Assembly (NCBI RefSeq): GCF_013376095.1
Contig: NZ_JAAMFN010000006.1
Location: 1-64,000 of the forward strand
Length of the DNA: 64,000 bases
Origin: Arthrobacter sp. SDTb3-6
Lineage (GTDB): Bacteria > Actinomycetota > Actinomycetes > Actinomycetales > Micrococcaceae
Direction of reading: 5' to 3'
A program made the translations under genes and the position numbers. Positions 855-7,273 of this stretch are shown here, in pieces; the first letter of the stretch is position 1; each line of letters begins with the position of its first letter. A model generated the notes under the pieces. That model was not told the origin of the DNA and ran no database searches. It saw nothing but the letters and a program-made list of their open reading frames with translations.

Positions 855-2873
855 CTACGCCAGCCCCCGCCGGGCAAGCAGCGGCGCCGTGTCCGCGTCG
901 CGCCCGGCAAATTCTCTGAAGGCCGCCAGGGGGTCCACCGAGAAGCCGCGGCCCAGCAGCGTCTCGCGAAAATGGTCCCCATTGGCCCTGGCCAGTCCGC
1001 CGTTGGCCTTGAACCAGGCTTCCGTGTCGGCGTAGAGCACCTCGCTCCAAAGGTAGGAGTAGTACCCGGCCGCATAACCGCCGGCGAAGATGTGGTTGAA
1101 GTAGCCGGTGCGGTAGCGCGGCGGCACGGCGGGCAGGTCCACGCCGGCAGCCGCCAGGGCCGCGGCCTCGAACGCCAGCGGGTCCTCCACCGGGGCACCG
1201 GCGGGCAGTTCGTGCCAGGCGAGGTCCAGCAGCGCAGCTGCCAGGTATTCGGTCGTGGCGAAGCCCTGGCCCCACAGGGCGGCGGCCTGCAGTTTCCCCG
1301 CCGTGCCCTCCGGCAGCGGCTCACCGCTGCGGTGGTGCAGGGCGTAGTTGGCCAGCACCTCGGGCCACAGGATCCACATCTCGTTGACCTGGGACGGGTA
1401 CTCCACGAAGTCCCGGGGCACGTTGGTCCCGGAGAACCGTGGCCAGCCGACGTTGGAGAAGAGGCCGTGCAGCGCATGGCCGAACTCGTGGAAGCACGTC
1501 ACGACCTCGTCGTACGTCAACAGCGCCGGCTCACCCTCCGGCGGCTTCGGGATGTTAAGGTTGTTGACCACGACGGCGTGCGTCCCCTCGAGCGCCGACT
1601 GCTCCACGAAGGAGTTCATCCACGCCCCGCCGCGCTTCGTCCCGCGCGTGAACCAGTCGCCCAGGAACAGGCCCAGTGCGGAGCCGTCCGCGTTGAACAC
1701 CTCCCAGACACGCACGTCCGGGTGGTACCCGGCCAGGTCGTGGCGCTCGGTGAAGGACAGCCCGTACAGGGCGGAGGCTGCGTAAAACACGCCGTTGTGC
1801 AGGACGGATTCGAGCTCGAACCAGGGGCGCAGGGCAGCCAGATCCACGCCGTATTCGTCCCGGCGCACCTGCGCGGCATAAAACGCCCAGTCCCAGGCCT
1901 CGATCGGGTGCCCGGCCGCCGCCGCCAGCTTCGCCTCCTCGGACCGTGCATTCCGCACGGCGGCGGCGGTGAGGGGAATGAGCATGGCGTGGACGGCCCC
2001 CACCGACGGCGCGGTCTGCGGCTCGATGGCCCGTTCGGCCTCGCTGGCAAATCCCAAAAGCGCAGCGCGCTCGGCCCGCAGCGCGGCGATGGTGGCGGCG
2101 AGGCCGGGGACCGTGGAGCCGGCACCGCCGCGCCCCACGGAGGCCAGGTGCAGCCGGCGCCGCGTTTCCCTGTTCGTGAGCACCTCCAGTGCCGGCTGGG
2201 CAGTGGGCAGGACCAGAGTCAGCAGGTAGCCGGAGCCGTGCCCGGCGGCACGGGCCGCGGCGGCCGCCGCGGCAAGGTCATCGGGGGTGAGCCCGTCAAG
2301 CTCCGCTGCGTCCTCGACCAGGAGGGCGGCGTCGTTGCCGGCCTGCATGACCCCTTGGGAAAATTCGGTGCTGAGCGAGGACAGCCTGCCGTTGAGCCCG
2401 CGCAGCCGCGCCTGCCCGGGTGCGTCAAGCCCCACCCCTGCCCGGGTGAACGACTTCCGGTATTCGTCCACCAGCCGCACGGACTCGGCGTCCAGGGCGT
2501 CCGTGGGCACGTCCAGGAACCGCCGGTAGAGGTCGGCGTTGAGCAGCACCGCGTCCGTGTGCGCGGCCAGGCGCGGGGCAATCTGCTGCTCGATCTCCTG
2601 GATGGCCGGCGTGCCGCAGGAAGAGGCGATGTTGAAGAAAACGTTGGATACGCGGCCCAGCACGGCCCCGCTGCGTTCCATGGCCGCCACGGTGTTCCCA
2701 AACGACGCCGGCTCCGGGTTCGCCGTGATCGCCTCGATCTCCGCCAGCTGCCGGGCAAACCCGGCCTCAAAGGCCGGCAGGTAGTCGCTGTCGGCGATGG
2801 CCGCGAAATCGGGCAGCTGGTACGGCAGCGTGCTGGCGGCCCGGAAGGGGTTGCCGGAAAATTCCTCAGTCAT
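855..2873 (-). CDS. M3-family zinc oligopeptidase (peptidyl-dipeptidase Dcp-like)
   Basis: The 672-residue cytoplasmic protein has the usual length for Dcp/oligopeptidase A enzymes, which trim short peptides. The zinc site HEFGH is at about residues 462-466, and the downstream FSGTNVPRDFVEYPSQ block is typical of M3 enzymes. The ATG at 2873 (MTEEFSGNPF) was chosen because the family alignment begins there and AAAGAG lies upstream. The frame stays open further upstream but would run through a perfect palindrome and give no family-like sequence. No signal peptide is seen. It is followed 3 nt later by the acetyltransferase gene. Confidence 0.93.
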   Translation of the reverse strand: MTEEFSGNPFRAASTLPYQLPDFAAIADSDYLPAFEAGFARQLAEIEAITANPEPASFGNTVAAMERSGAVLGRVSNVFFNIASSCGTPAIQEIEQQIAPRLAAHTDAVLLNADLYRRFLDVPTDALDAESVRLVDEYRKSFTRAGVGLDAPGQARLRGLNGRLSSLSTEFSQGVMQAGNDAALLVEDAAELDGLTPDDLAAAAAAARAAGHGSGYLLTLVLPTAQPALEVLTNRETRRRLHLASVGRGGAGSTVPGLAATIAALRAERAALLGFASEAERAIEPQTAPSVGAVHAMLIPLTAAAVRNARSEEAKLAAAAGHPIEAWDWAFYAAQVRRDEYGVDLAALRPWFELESVLHNGVFYAASALYGLSFTERHDLAGYHPDVRVWEVFNADGSALGLFLGDWFTRGTKRGGAWMNSFVEQSALEGTHAVVVNNLNIPKPPEGEPALLTYDEVVTCFHEFGHALHGLFSNVGWPRFSGTNVPRDFVEYPSQVNEMWILWPEVLANYALHHRSGEPLPEGTAGKLQAAALWGQGFATTEYLAAALLDLAWHELPAGAPVEDPLAFEAAALAAAGVDLPAVPPRYRTGYFNHIFAGGYAAGYYSYLWSEVLYADTEAWFKANGGLARANGDHFRETLLGRGFSVDPLAAFREFAGRDADTAPLLARRGLA

Positions 2874-2894: not shown

Positions 2895-2942
2895 AACCGG
2901 CGGACGACGGCGAAAGGTACGTTTCGCCGTCGTCCGCCGGTT
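2895..2942. repeat. perfect 21-bp inverted repeat with 6-nt loop
   Basis: Positions 2895-2915 are the exact reverse complement of 2922-2942, with GGTACG between them. It lies between two same-strand genes, the 900-residue synthetase upstream and the M3 peptidase downstream. Neither side carries a clear T-run, so it is not a standard intrinsic terminator. It may still stop or stabilise the synthetase transcript, or it may be an interspersed palindromic repeat. Confidence 0.8.
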
Positions 2943-2961: not shown

Positions 2962-5664
2962 CTACTTTTGGGCGGGCACGCCCTGCTGCTGGAACACCAG
3001 GGACATCGGCGTGGTTTCCGTGGTCTGGCCCTGCGGGTTGTCACGGAAGATGTCCTGCAGCACGTCCTTCTCCAGCTGCGTGTCGTGGCCCAGGGCCACG
3101 ACGCCGAGGTCATTGGCGTCCATGACCGCCGTGCCGGCAAAGTTTGCGGCGTATTCGGCGGGCACCGTGGCCCGGACCAGGGCGCTGAGGCGGGCCGCCA
3201 CGCCGTCGGGGTCCAGCGGCGCGTACTTCACCGAATGGGTGGAGGTGCCCACCTGGTAGCCGGCGGCGCCGTCGATGGCGTTGATGTTGTGGCCCACCAC
3301 CTCGTAGAACACGCCGGACTTTCCCTGCAGCTTGCCGATCACGGAGCGGGCGGAGGCGTACATGATGCGGGGCAGGCCCACCTCGTCGATGGCCAGCTGC
3401 ATGGACCAGGGGCTGGCCAGGCCGATCCCGCCCGGGTTGCGGGTGACGAACTTGCTGAAGATCCGCGCCGCGCCGGAGACCTTGATGTCCCAGACCGGGA
3501 TGGAGCGGCCCTGGGTCATGGCCACGATCTTTTCCGAGACGAACAGGTACCAGGGGGTGTCCGCCGTCGCCGTGCCGTGGTCGCCGCCGGCGGCGGGCAG
3601 GCCGTCAAAGAAGCGCTTGACGTACTGCATGACGGTCGGGTCGAAGTCGGTTTCCTTGTAAAAGACCTCGGTGCGCAGCGGGTAGCGGCGGAACGTGCCG
3701 GCGCCGTTGGGGACGGTGATGTCCAGCTGCTTGTCCGCGTTGGGGATGTAGTCGCTCTTGCCCTCGATCCCGGCCTTGGCCTCGGGCACGTCAAAGAACT
3801 CGCGCAGCCAAAGCTCGGTGTTGATCAGGCGCCAGAACACCATGGTGGAGCCGGCGGACTTGCCGCTGAGGTACTCCTCGAAGGCGTAGATGACGGCGTC
3901 CTGGTTCCAGTACGGGCGGGCGCCGAAGGAGGAGGAGAGGAAGATCTCGTAGATTTTTTCCTTCATCAACGAGAACCACTCGGCCTCCGGCGTGGTGAAG
4001 CCGATCTTGTTGCGGCGGTTGCTGATCATCTCCGGCAGCAGCCCGCGCGTGGCGTCGCGCAGGATCCGCTTGTTCCAGCCGCCCTTGATGATGGATTCAT
4101 CGTCCAGGCTGAACAGGAACTTCACCACTTCCTTGTCCAGGAACGGCACACGGCCCTCCAGGGAGAAGCGCATGGTGTTCTTGTCCTCGTAGCGCAGCAC
4201 GGCCGGCAGGGACTTGTGGAACAGGTCGTCGATGAGGCGCAGCTTGAGGTTGTCCGGGATGTTGGAGAAGGTCTCGGACTTCCACTTTGACGTGAATTTC
4301 TTGTTCAGCAGCGGGGTGATGCCCGTGGCCTTCTTGAACGTCAGGGCGCCCTGGATGCGGAAACGGGCCAGGCGGAACAGGATGTCCGCGCTGGAGGCCA
4401 GTTCCTTGGCGAGCTTGGCGGTCTGGCCGTTCTTCTTCAGCTGGCGCAGGTAGGCAAAGTAGTAGGGGATGTAGCCGGCCATCATCTCGTCGGCGCCCTG
4501 GCCGTCGAGCAGGACGGTCACGTGCTTGGACGCCTCGCGCATCACCTGGTACTGGGCGTACGGGCCGGAGGAGATGATGGGCTCCTCCATGGTGCGCACA
4601 AAGTCCTCCAGGTCCGCCACAAACTCGGCGGCCTGCGGACGGATCTTGTGGCTGGTGACGTTGCCTGCGCAGCGCGCCAGCACGGCGTCGGCGTACTTTT
4701 CCTCGTCGTTGAGCGAGTTGGGGAAGACGGCGGAGAAGGTCTGCTGCGTGGCGCCCAGCGAGTCCGTGGCAGCTGCCTTGTCCTGCATGAGCTTGTTGAT
4801 GGTGGCCACGACGGCGGAGGAGTCCAGCCCGCCGGACAGGGCCGTGCCGACGGGGACTTCGGACTGCAGGCGCAGGCGCACGCCCTCCGTGAACCGGTCG
4901 CGGTATTCGTCGATGACGGCCTGCGAGTAGGGGGTTTCGATCTTGGCCAGCTCGGCCAGTTCCTCCTTCAGTCGCGTGTACGGACTGATGGTGATGGTCC
5001 CCGCGGGACCGGCTTCCGTGTCCACCGTGTCCAGGACCAGTTTTTCGCCCGGCATGAGCTTGTGGATGCCGGCGAAGAACGTCTCGGCCTCCTCGTCGTG
5101 GATGCGGAATTGCAGGTAGCGGAAAAGGATCCGCTCATTGACTTCCTGCTCCAGCTTCCCGGCGGCCAGCAGCGGCTTGATCTCCGAGCCGAACAGCAGC
5201 GTGGGCGCCTCGGGCGTGCCGGCCGTGGCGTAGTACAGCGGCTTGATGCCGAAGTGGTCGCGGGCCAGCACCAGGCGGTTGTTTTTGCGGTCGTGGATGG
5301 CCAGGCCGAACATGCCGTTGAACTTGTCAAAGGCGGCGTCGCCCCACTCCTGGTAGGACTGCAGCACCACTTCGGTGTCCGACTGGGTGGCGAAGTCGCG
5401 GCCCAGGGACTCCAGCTCGGCGCGCAGGTCCAGGTAGTTGTACACCTCGCCGTTGTACACCAGGACGGTTTCCCCGTCGGCGCTGTACATGGGCTCCTGG
5501 CCGTGGGCCACATCGATGATCGAGAGGCGCCGGTGGGCGAGTCCTACGTTGCCATGTGTGTAGAGGCCTTCCCCGTCGGGCCCGCGGTGCACCATGCACG
5601 CGTTCATTGCCCCCAGGAGGGTTTCGTCTTCCCCATAACCGTAGTATCCGGCGATTCCGCACAT
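2962..5664 (-). CDS. asnB: asparagine synthetase-like amidotransferase fused to CofE-like ligase domain
   Basis: This 900-residue protein has two parts. Residues 1-625 are an AsnB-type synthetase, which uses glutamine and ATP to amidate a carboxylate. The glutaminase begins with the catalytic Cys2 ([10 protein letters not shown]) and the ATP-pyrophosphatase motif SGGLDSS is at 277-283. Stand-alone AsnB enzymes end near residues 550-650. Residues about 660-895 resemble F420-0:gamma-glutamyl ligase (CofE-like) proteins, with blocks [14 protein letters not shown] (708-721), [19 protein letters not shown] (745-763), NAIDGA (795-800), [13 protein letters not shown] (847-859) and [13 protein letters not shown] (875-887). 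The real substrate is unknown. It could be a carboxylate that is amidated or ligated to an amino acid. The gene is divergent from pdxT. It has no F420-pathway neighbours in the window. Confidence 0.85.
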
Positions 5665-5780
5665 ACTGCATTACCTCATCTTTAGTACGTCAGTCCTCGC
5701 CCAATGCTACTTGCTTGGCGCCCGGGGGCCTGCCAGGCCCCGGTGCGGGAGGCGTGCAAACAAGTGACATTGCGCCCATC

Positions 5781-5792
5781 TATGATGGAAAA
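5781..5792 (+). promoter_or_regulatory. -10 box of a probable leaderless pdxT promoter
   Basis: TATGAT at 5781-5786 is followed by exactly 6 nt and then the GTG start at 5793. The transcript would therefore begin at or next to the start codon. No clear -35 box is visible. The same spacing recurs before several other genes in the window. Confidence 0.55.
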
Positions 5793-6515
5793 GTGACTGT
5801 TCCCATCCCTGATTCTTCCCCGTACGACGGCGGCTCCCGCCCTTTGGTGGGCATCCTCGCCCTGCAGGGCGACGTGCGTGAACACGCCCGGGCCCTGGCG
5901 GCCTGCGGTGCGCGCGTGTCGGCCGTGCGCCGCCCCGCCGAGCTGGCCGCCGTCGACGGCCTGGTGCTTCCCGGCGGGGAATCCACCACCATCGACAAGC
6001 TGACGCGGATTTTTGGGCTGCGCGGGCCGCTGCGCGAGCGCATCCAGTCCGGCCTGCCCGTGTACGGCAGCTGCGCCGGCATGATCCTGCTGGCCGACGA
6101 AATCGCCGACCCCGCCACCGACCTGGCCGGCAACGCGCAGCAGACCCTCGGCGGGCTGGACATCACGGTACGCCGCAACGCGTTCGGCCGGCAGGTCGAT
6201 TCCTTCGAGACCGAGCTGGACTTTTCCCGGCTGGAGCCCTGTGGGCAAGCCGGCGGCCGGGCGGCCAAGCCGGTCCACGCCGTGTTCATCCGAGCCCCGT
6301 GGGTGGAGCGCGTGGGCGCCTCCGTGGAGGTCCTTGCCAGTGTGGAAATCCCGGCCGAGGCGCACCCGGCACCGCAAAACGGTAGAATTGGTTCCGTTGA
6401 ACGTGCCGTCGCCGTGCGGTCGCAGCACTTGCTTGCCACCTCCTTCCATCCGGAAGTGACGGGCGAGCGCCGCATCCACGAACTTTTTATTCGAATGATC
6501 AGAGGAGAAGCGTAA
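5793..6515 (+). CDS. pdxT: pyridoxal 5'-phosphate synthase glutaminase subunit PdxT
   Basis: PdxT hydrolyses glutamine and channels ammonia to PdxS for vitamin B6 synthesis. The 240-residue protein shows [13 protein letters not shown] near the start, [12 protein letters not shown], the nucleophile Cys in YGSCAGMIL, and the SFHPEVTGE region holding the His-Glu of the class-I glutaminase triad. The GTG at 5793 is the only good start, since the frame runs open upstream without an ATG near the conserved N-terminus. PdxS is not adjacent. The yebC gene starts 2 nt after the stop, so the two are likely co-transcribed. Confidence 0.93.
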
Positions 6516-6517
6516 CC

Positions 6518-7273
6518 ATGTCAGGCCACTCCAAATGGGCGACCACCAAGCACAAAAAAGCCATCATTGACAGCCGCCGTGCCAAGTCGTTCGCGAAACT
6601 GATCAAAAACATCGAGGTTGCCTCCCGCATGGGCGGGGCCGATCTCGCCGGCAACCCGGCCCTGGAACTCGCCGTGTCCAAGGCCAAGAAGACCTCGGTG
6701 CCCAACGACAACATTGACCGCGCCATCAAGCGCGGCGCGGGCCTGCTCGGCGAAGCCGTCGACTACCAGACCATCATGTACGAAGGCTACGGCCCCCAGG
6801 GCACCGCGCTGCTGATCGAGTGCCTCACCGACAACAAGAACCGTGCCGCCTCCGAGGTGCGCCTCGCCGTGGGCCGCAACGGCGGCAACATGGGCGACCC
6901 CGGCTCCGTGGCGTACATGTTCACCCGCAAGGGAATCGTGGGCCTGCCCAAGAACGGGCTCACCGAGGACGACCTCCTCATGGCGGTCCTCGACGCCGGC
7001 GCCGAGGAGGTCAAGGACGAGGGCGAGAACTTTGAGATCATCTCCGACACCGCGGACCTGCCCGCGATCCGCGCGGCCCTGACGGATGCCGGCATTGAAT
7101 ACGAAACCGATGAGGCCGGATTTGTCCCGTCCATGCAGGTGGAACTGGACGTCGAACACGCCCGGAAGTTCATGAAGCTCTACGACGCGCTCGAGGACCT
7201 GGACGACGTCCAGAACATCTACTCCAACGCGGACATGAGCGAGGAAGTCCTCGCCGCGCTCGAAGAGGACTAG
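6518..7273 (+). CDS. yebC: YebC/PmpR-family regulator
   Basis: This 251-residue protein begins [18 protein letters not shown], the hallmark of the YebC family. Proteins of this family have been described as DNA-binding regulators and, more recently, as factors acting on translation. The length and the acidic C-terminal domain (about 130-250) are normal. AGAGGAG just upstream is a good ribosome-binding site. It lies between pdxT and ruvC. The yebC-ruvC-ruvA-ruvB order is widely conserved in bacteria. Confidence 0.95.

Follow-up and report, generated by a model that had tools for sequence, protein, structure and literature searches.

Amidation of D-Glu at stem position 2 of lipid II is attributed to MurT-GatD, and murTgatD has been called universal in Actinobacteria (PMC6085368). 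Carboxyl groups are also the targets of CofE, which activates a carboxyl with GTP and then joins L-glutamate to it (PMC10861534), and of AsnB-type enzymes, which amidate wall (peptidoglycan) carboxyls in several bacteria; LtsA and Listeria AsnB amidate meso-DAP, and the part of the source available to us mentions no ligase fused to them (PMC8554201). A further CofE-like protein, QimC, is encoded in a wall-modification operon of Streptococcus pyogenes, its role being unclear to its authors (PMC13059722). Glycine on the alpha-carboxyl of D-Glu features in published descriptions of wall types. In group B walls, the cross-bridge begins at the D-Glu alpha-carboxyl. We know of no enzyme for the addition of glycine to this carboxyl or for the start of the group B bridge, and a literature search (titles and abstract openings, with subscription journals thinly covered) found none named for either linkage.

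The stretch of DNA analysed here (64,000 nucleotides, hereafter the window) encodes an AsnB-type enzyme and a CofE-like domain on one chain, and the new result is the position of this fusion in the murT-gatD slot. In MurT-GatD and in the fusion alike, an acid-activating ligase goes together with a glutamine amidotransferase, and the two systems use common slots and are mutually exclusive in the order sample described below; in contrast, they have no Pfam family in common, MurT-GatD consisting of a Mur ligase and a GATase_3 protein and the fusion of a CofE-like domain and a class II AsnB-type enzyme. With LtsA and Listeria AsnB the fusion has in common the AsnB family and, as we propose, the amidation of a wall carboxyl, whereas its fused ligase sets it apart from them. 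QimC is likewise CofE-like, but sits in a different operon and is likened to the fusion by its published description only. Since the fusion occupies the slot that holds MurT-GatD in relatives, its target in the cell wall is probably the same, but modified differently.

The two modules of the fusion protein

The fusion gene (2962..5664, minus strand) begins with ATG and encodes 900 aa; the plus-strand frame at 2962-5664 contains an in-frame stop. A sequence-only reading of the window, which named no strand, had described residues 1-625 as a complete AsnB-type enzyme, and this was borne out. The region (3790..5664, minus), a class II glutamine amidotransferase plus an ATP-pyrophosphatase, matched Pfam GATase_7 (8.4e-44, residues 44-167) and Asn_synthase (4.9e-65, residues 253-621) and scored 415.3 bits with TIGR01536 (asparagine synthase AsnB equivalog; cut-off 267.1). 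Alignment located Cys2 (5659-5661, minus), HRGPDG, the ATP-pyrophosphatase motif SGGLDSS (residues 277-283; 4816..4836, minus) and LDGQGADE in the window protein. Both Cys2 and the PP-loop are gone from five of the 48 fused proteins aligned, which retain the CofE-like half. The called start of the L067 fused protein trims away its first residues, and the fusions of Terrabacter, Terracoccus and Humibacillus have SGGLDSA, SGGIDSA or SGGIDAA at the PP-loop and have lost HRGPDG.

Asparagine supply is an unlikely role for this enzyme, because none of the 58 relatives has an asparaginyl-tRNA synthetase (asnS) that exceeds the cut-off, compared with 7/14 control genomes, and because the members of the same family that have no fusion mostly have no AsnB: eight of 11 such genomes gave no AsnB match at E<=1e-3, and the remaining three only short and weak ones. 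A housekeeping asparagine synthetase was rejected as a likely identity on these grounds.

Residues 640-900 (2965..3747, minus) had been read as CofE-like, and all four motifs quoted in that reading were found. The domain search that had been proposed as a check gave a divided answer: Asn_synthase was strongly matched, while with PF01996 the window protein itself remained under the cut-off (E=0.072, 13.0 bits against 25; best stretch residues 707-832, 3169-3546, minus) and its relatives matched. Two homologues scored 45.9 and 47.8 bits, and 36 of the 46 members of alignment A3 matched PF01996 at E<=1e-3; at E<=0.01, 19/46 matched TIGR01916 and 11/46 matched TIGR04132 (putative folate gamma-glutamate ligase), the window protein being one of the 46 and matching neither PF01996 nor TIGR01916 at these thresholds. 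Profile-profile comparison with an alignment of 15 true CofE sequences gave a probability of 95.1%, and with another alignment 86.2%, spanning 44 columns. The assignment is therefore weak for the window protein alone but firm by virtue of the PF01996 and TIGR01916 matches of relatives and the profile-profile result, and these comparisons place residues 640-900 in a divergent branch of the CofE superfamily. The domain matches in each half agree with the earlier claim of two separate amide-bond-forming modules on one chain. In a PF01996 search of its genome, the window protein was the sole match at E<=1 and none was over the cut-off; on the basis of this search an F420 enzyme seems unlikely, in keeping with the earlier view that the substrate is probably not F420.

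When the domain was compared with CofE/FbiB (PF01996, TIGR01916; PDB 2g9i, 2phn and 7uld), its N-terminal half and DPD block aligned by profile, and by analogy the same amino-acid-to-carboxyl ligase chemistry may be expected of it. In contrast, the TDT-GRPWR block present in CofE alignment A4 is absent from the consensus of alignments A1 and A3, which has DANDLG or DINDIG in its place, and a PDB search at E<=1 with the profile of the domain family yielded no chain, compared with three for the profile of true CofE. The two halves correlated only weakly in a mirror-tree comparison (Spearman 0.32 for 48 proteins and 0.47 for 42), which thus does not show that they were inherited together as one unit.

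Downstream of the fusion lies a dcp-like M3 oligopeptidase gene (855..2873, minus, start picked by eye; Peptidase_M3 match of 3e-101 for 858-2870). Between the two is a perfect inverted repeat with 21-bp arms (2895..2942, minus), which is probably a terminator; the region 2888-2950 gave an RNA fold of -47.6 kcal/mol (z = -9.4). Because this probable terminator separates them, the fusion gene is probably transcribed alone, and a shared operon with the peptidase gene was rejected in view of the strong hairpin. Divergent from the fusion is pdxT (5736..6515, plus), located in the tblastn anchor survey, 5736 being the first position of the trimmed query; it is followed by yebC (6518-7273) and ruvCAB, both named by eye. 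The peptidase gene and pdxT serve as slot anchors in what follows. Product names of neighbours were mostly assigned by eye, or by blast with anchors that had themselves been named by eye, and some were confirmed with Pfam.

Chromosomal slots shared with murT-gatD and exclusion of MurT

A tblastn survey with anchor proteins over fetched loci showed that murT-gatD and the fusion, or the stand-alone domain, share chromosomal slots in four families. In the window's family (f1, with Sinomonas mesophila and, from the window's own genus, Specibacter cremeus), the MurT-positive genome G031 has the order dcp, gatD, murT, pdxT, yebC, ruvCAB, secDF, and the window has dcp, the fusion and then the same series from pdxT to secDF. 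Pfam identified MurT (MurT_C, 90.9 bits, and Mur_ligase_M) and GatD (GATase_3, 115 bits) at the slot, and confirmed the M3 peptidase on both the MurT-GatD and the fusion sides of the comparison. Nine MurT-positive loci were fetched from this family, for which 24 such genomes are known in the order sample; MurT-GatD adjoins pdxT, with dcp opposite (up to about 5 kb off), in seven, L185 lies beside yebC only and L186 has no anchors in its stretch. On the fusion side of this slot, pdxT was found in 20 loci and dcp in 13 of these 20, within the stretch covered.

Other anchors mark the exchange elsewhere. In family f19, which includes Agromyces seonyuensis, MurT-GatD lies between sigA and parE in 5/5 MurT-positive loci, and the stand-alone domain lies beside sigA in 26 loci, 25 of them with parE. 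Genus g24 of family f11, which includes Brachybacterium alimentarium, has MurT-GatD between dapB and dapA-rnj in 5/5 loci, and other g24 loci hold the fusion there. Family f17, to which Intrasporangium calvum belongs, has MurT-GatD near guaA in four of five loci (L200 being without anchors), and of the fusion-bearing stretches of this group ten contain guaA and those of L060, L062, L073 and L181 lack it. Another exchange was seen near cmk-der between L139 and L144, of the same genus, and none of the anchors was found in the MurT-positive loci L201 and L202 (families f3 and f7). Pfam confirms MurT at four exchange loci and GatD at two.

Across 396 genomes of the order, profile searches detected the CofE-like domain in 55 (13 in frames of 236-330 aa, all from f19, and 42 in frames of 439-1181 aa) and MurT_C in 138, of which 137 were over the cut-off. 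Both were found together in 0/396, where about 19 would be expected if they were independent (Fisher p=7.5e-12), and 203 genomes had neither. The 58 relatives gave the same picture (26 with the domain, 16 with MurT_C, none with both), as did the 38 genomes of the genus of G045 (30 domain-positive, five MurT-positive, none with both and three with neither; p=1.1e-4) and the window's family in the order sample (6 domain-positive, 24 MurT-positive, none with both and five with neither; p=2.8e-4). As the genomes are related and are not independent points, these p values are a guide only, and more weight belongs to the fact that the exchange recurs within genera and at different loci. MurT_C had no match in the window's genome, and neither the Mur ligase middle domain nor MurT_C nor GATase_3 was matched by the window protein at E<=1. 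The 258/396 genomes with no MurT_C match at E<=0.001 go against the claim of a universal murTgatD in Actinobacteria (PMC6085368).

Of the 39 named domain-positive genomes among the matches listed, three also gave a MurT_C score that exceeds the cut-off and so have both systems, namely Stackebrandtia albiflava (72 bits), Actinopolymorpha rutila (69.3) and Microlunatus speluncae (28.5, a partial match). These three belong to orders other than the window's. A domain-positive Terracoccus, which does belong with the window's order, gave MurT_C at 23.4 bits, just under the cut-off. The loci covered do not include L077. In a Microbacterium-type genus, MurT_C was matched in 37/198 genomes at 30.8-44.7 bits; as this MurT (L140, L141, L191-L193) is divergent, it may itself use another nucleophile in group B walls.

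Distribution of fused and stand-alone forms

All 23 genomes of the genus carry the fusion at full length, those besides the window's own (22) at 86-95% identity; this rules out a lone frameshift fusion. Within the set of 58 relatives, two other genera of the window's family gave full-length matches at 78% and 69% identity, and G045 gave a match from residue 117 onward, its N-terminal half being decayed. A domain search of 394 genomes of the class detected it in 19 at E<=0.01, stand-alone forms included; in three of the 19 the match was weak (E above 1e-3). Named genomes were scanned through the best 80 of 537 relatives; among the 73 of these 80 in which the ORF was resolved, more than 200 residues precede the domain in 45 and fewer in 28. 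Among the matches listed, the fusion is carried by Arthrobacter, Specibacter, Sinomonas, Tersicoccus, Brachybacterium, Intrasporangium, Terrabacter, Microlunatus and Stackebrandtia, and by eight loci labelled Patescibacteria or grouping with them; the stand-alone form is found in Microbacterium (Microbacteriaceae) and Clostridia. In a tree of the domain, 47 fused rows, including those of Patescibacteria, fell together with L071 and L082 in one group with support of 100/99; neither L071 nor L082 has a full N-terminal half, the L082 sequence running into the end of its contig. Two more fused rows (L042 and L117) pair up outside this main group with low support.

Several neighbourhoods were recorded by eye. 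The fusion lies upstream of gatC-gatA-gatB in seven of the eight Patescibacteria-type loci (L089, L094, L096, L098, L101, L103 and L111, the exception being L099), with NAD synthetase-like and glutamine synthetase-like genes in between in L094. Stand-alone CofE-like forms were located in L104 (5115-6941), L106 (698-2638) and L129 (7950-9452). In two of these three loci, from Clostridia, the stand-alone gene directly follows a glmS-like gene, other Clostridia loci having no such neighbour, and in the third, from an uncultured bacterium, it adjoins mraZ-rsmH-like genes; these neighbours also point to cell-wall synthesis. Loci of Micrococcaceae or Microbacterium type turned up in records labelled Sporosarcina beigongshangi (L093), Stenotrophomonas maltophilia (L119) and Candidatus Microthrix (L116), whose source assemblies are probably mislabelled or contaminated.

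Proposed role at the alpha-carboxyl of D-Glu

The murT-gatD slot and the exclusion of MurT in the order sample point to the D-Glu alpha-carboxyl of the peptidoglycan precursor, and it is there that the fusion very probably acts. That it is a precursor-modifying enzyme which displaced MurT-GatD, placing an amino acid on this carboxyl and then amidating it, seems to us reasonably likely; on the chemistry as such, an amino acid plus an amide, our judgement is evenly balanced. What we infer about the substrate, the residue added, the sequence of the steps and the final amide is as follows. The CofE-like half would use a nucleoside triphosphate, which for CofE is GTP, to activate the alpha-carboxyl of D-Glu at stem position 2; a small amino acid, glycine in the case of Intrasporangium calvum, would be linked to that carboxyl through its amino group. 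The AsnB half would then adenylate the new free carboxylate and amidate it with glutamine-derived ammonia, leaving an uncharged terminus, as amidation by MurT-GatD would. Ligation followed by amidation, which the sequence-only reading had already suggested, would be the simplest reading that uses both conserved sites, and two natural variants fit it, namely the five of 48 fusions without Cys2 and PP-loop and the stand-alone form without an AsnB half.

The alternative that survives best, which we nonetheless regard as unlikely, is that the fusion makes D-isoglutamine exactly as MurT-GatD does, with no amino acid added; ammonia would come from the glutaminase domain, and the alpha-carboxyl would be activated at one of the two synthetase sites, CofE-like or AsnB. 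The common slots and mutual exclusion fit such a simple replacement, and AsnB-family enzymes are described as amidating peptidoglycan elsewhere (PMC8554201); however, the stand-alone genes of Microbacteriaceae occupy the same slot with no fused glutaminase, the five fusions that lost Cys2 and the PP-loop keep their CofE-like half, and two activating sites are conserved in most fusions where one would be enough.

Wall chemistry bears on this choice from both sides. Intrasporangium calvum 7 KIP, for which glycine on the D-Glu2 alpha-carboxyl is reported (PMC3035309), speaks against an identical product; its genome (G605) has an intact fusion and no MurT match, and the co-occurrence of the fusion with alpha-carboxyl glycine is thereby shown in this organism. 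In favour of an identical product would be the Arthrobacter siccitolerans wall, should that strain carry the fusion, since it is described with no Gly, Ala at 2.8 and no extra residue; the available description of Brachybacterium faecium murein gives meso-DAP, Ala and Glu and leaves Gly unmentioned. As the B. faecium genome (G707) has an intact fusion, the absence of reported Gly from its murein means that the added residue is not Gly everywhere, or that older analyses missed it. The Arthrobacter wall is described as containing lysine (PMC3836493). The wall of Sinomonas is described as type A3alpha, and Sinomonas atrocyanea (L085) has the fusion and no MurT match. Schleifer and Kandler reportedly described in 1972 a glycine amide in the wall of Arthrobacter atrocyaneus, which we take to be the present Sinomonas atrocyanea. 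The named domain-positive Microbacterium species are, we assume, ornithine types. Microbacteriaceae, described as having group B peptidoglycan (PMC10978784), carry the stand-alone CofE-like form. A literature search for glycine amide in Arthrobacter gave no usable statement in the text available, and the available parts of PMC4786123 and PMC6113628 hold nothing usable on D-Glu.

Less probable still is that another carboxyl is modified, such as that of an interpeptide-bridge acid, a teichoic or teichuronic acid or a folate-like tail, the MurT slot pattern then reflecting a hotspot of cell-wall genes. The TIGR04132 and TIGR01916 matches within A3, the presence of a CofE-like qimC in a wall-modification operon of Streptococcus pyogenes (PMC13059722) and the three named genomes with both systems would suit it, yet a hotspot leaves unexplained why 0/396 genomes are double carriers and why the exchange took place at four different loci. 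We consider it highly improbable that the AsnB half serves as the cell's usual asparagine synthetase, with the CofE-like half attached to it as a passenger or regulator of no related function, since the TIGR01536 score and the gatC-gatA-gatB genes after the fusion in most Patescibacteria-type loci, one with a glutamine synthetase-like gene, are set against the missing asnS, the eight of 11 fusion-free family members with no AsnB match, the five proteins whose AsnB half decayed while the CofE-like half was kept, and a MurT exclusion left unexplained.

Beyond ligation and amidation by the fusion itself, we tentatively propose, at somewhat less than an even level of confidence, that the ligases acting on peptidoglycan precursors include a family not recognised so far, the CofE-like ligases, which occur alone or fused to AsnB and would place the first residue on the alpha-carboxyl of D-Glu2. 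The fused forms would give the glycine or glycine-amide type of substituent of group A walls, the stand-alone forms of Microbacteriaceae would start the alpha-linked group B cross-bridge, and MurT-GatD would have been displaced in place repeatedly; Patescibacteria, too, have the fused form. The question can be tested directly, since it concerns one gene with a well-defined slot and excluded partner, of which natural variants exist that have an active AsnB half or lack one, and the CofE-like fold gains a likely role outside F420.

Two minor observations concern related loci. A divergent sister family (L051-L056), with 26-28% identity to the window's CofE-like domain, has three copies in one large actinobacterial genome (G187); a gene for a MurJ-like membrane protein, named by eye, adjoins it in four of the six loci, and MurT_C was found in none of the four genomes tested. 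In the stand-alone f19 sigA loci (L043, 5098-6114, and 25 others), the fetched stretch contains a sugar-transfer-type ATP-grasp gene (ATPgrasp_ST) in 24/26 and an alanine-racemase-like gene in 10/26, and the five MurT-positive f19 loci (L140, L141, L191-L193) have no ATP-grasp match and a racemase in three. The ATP-grasp of the stand-alone loci may supply the next residue of the bridge.
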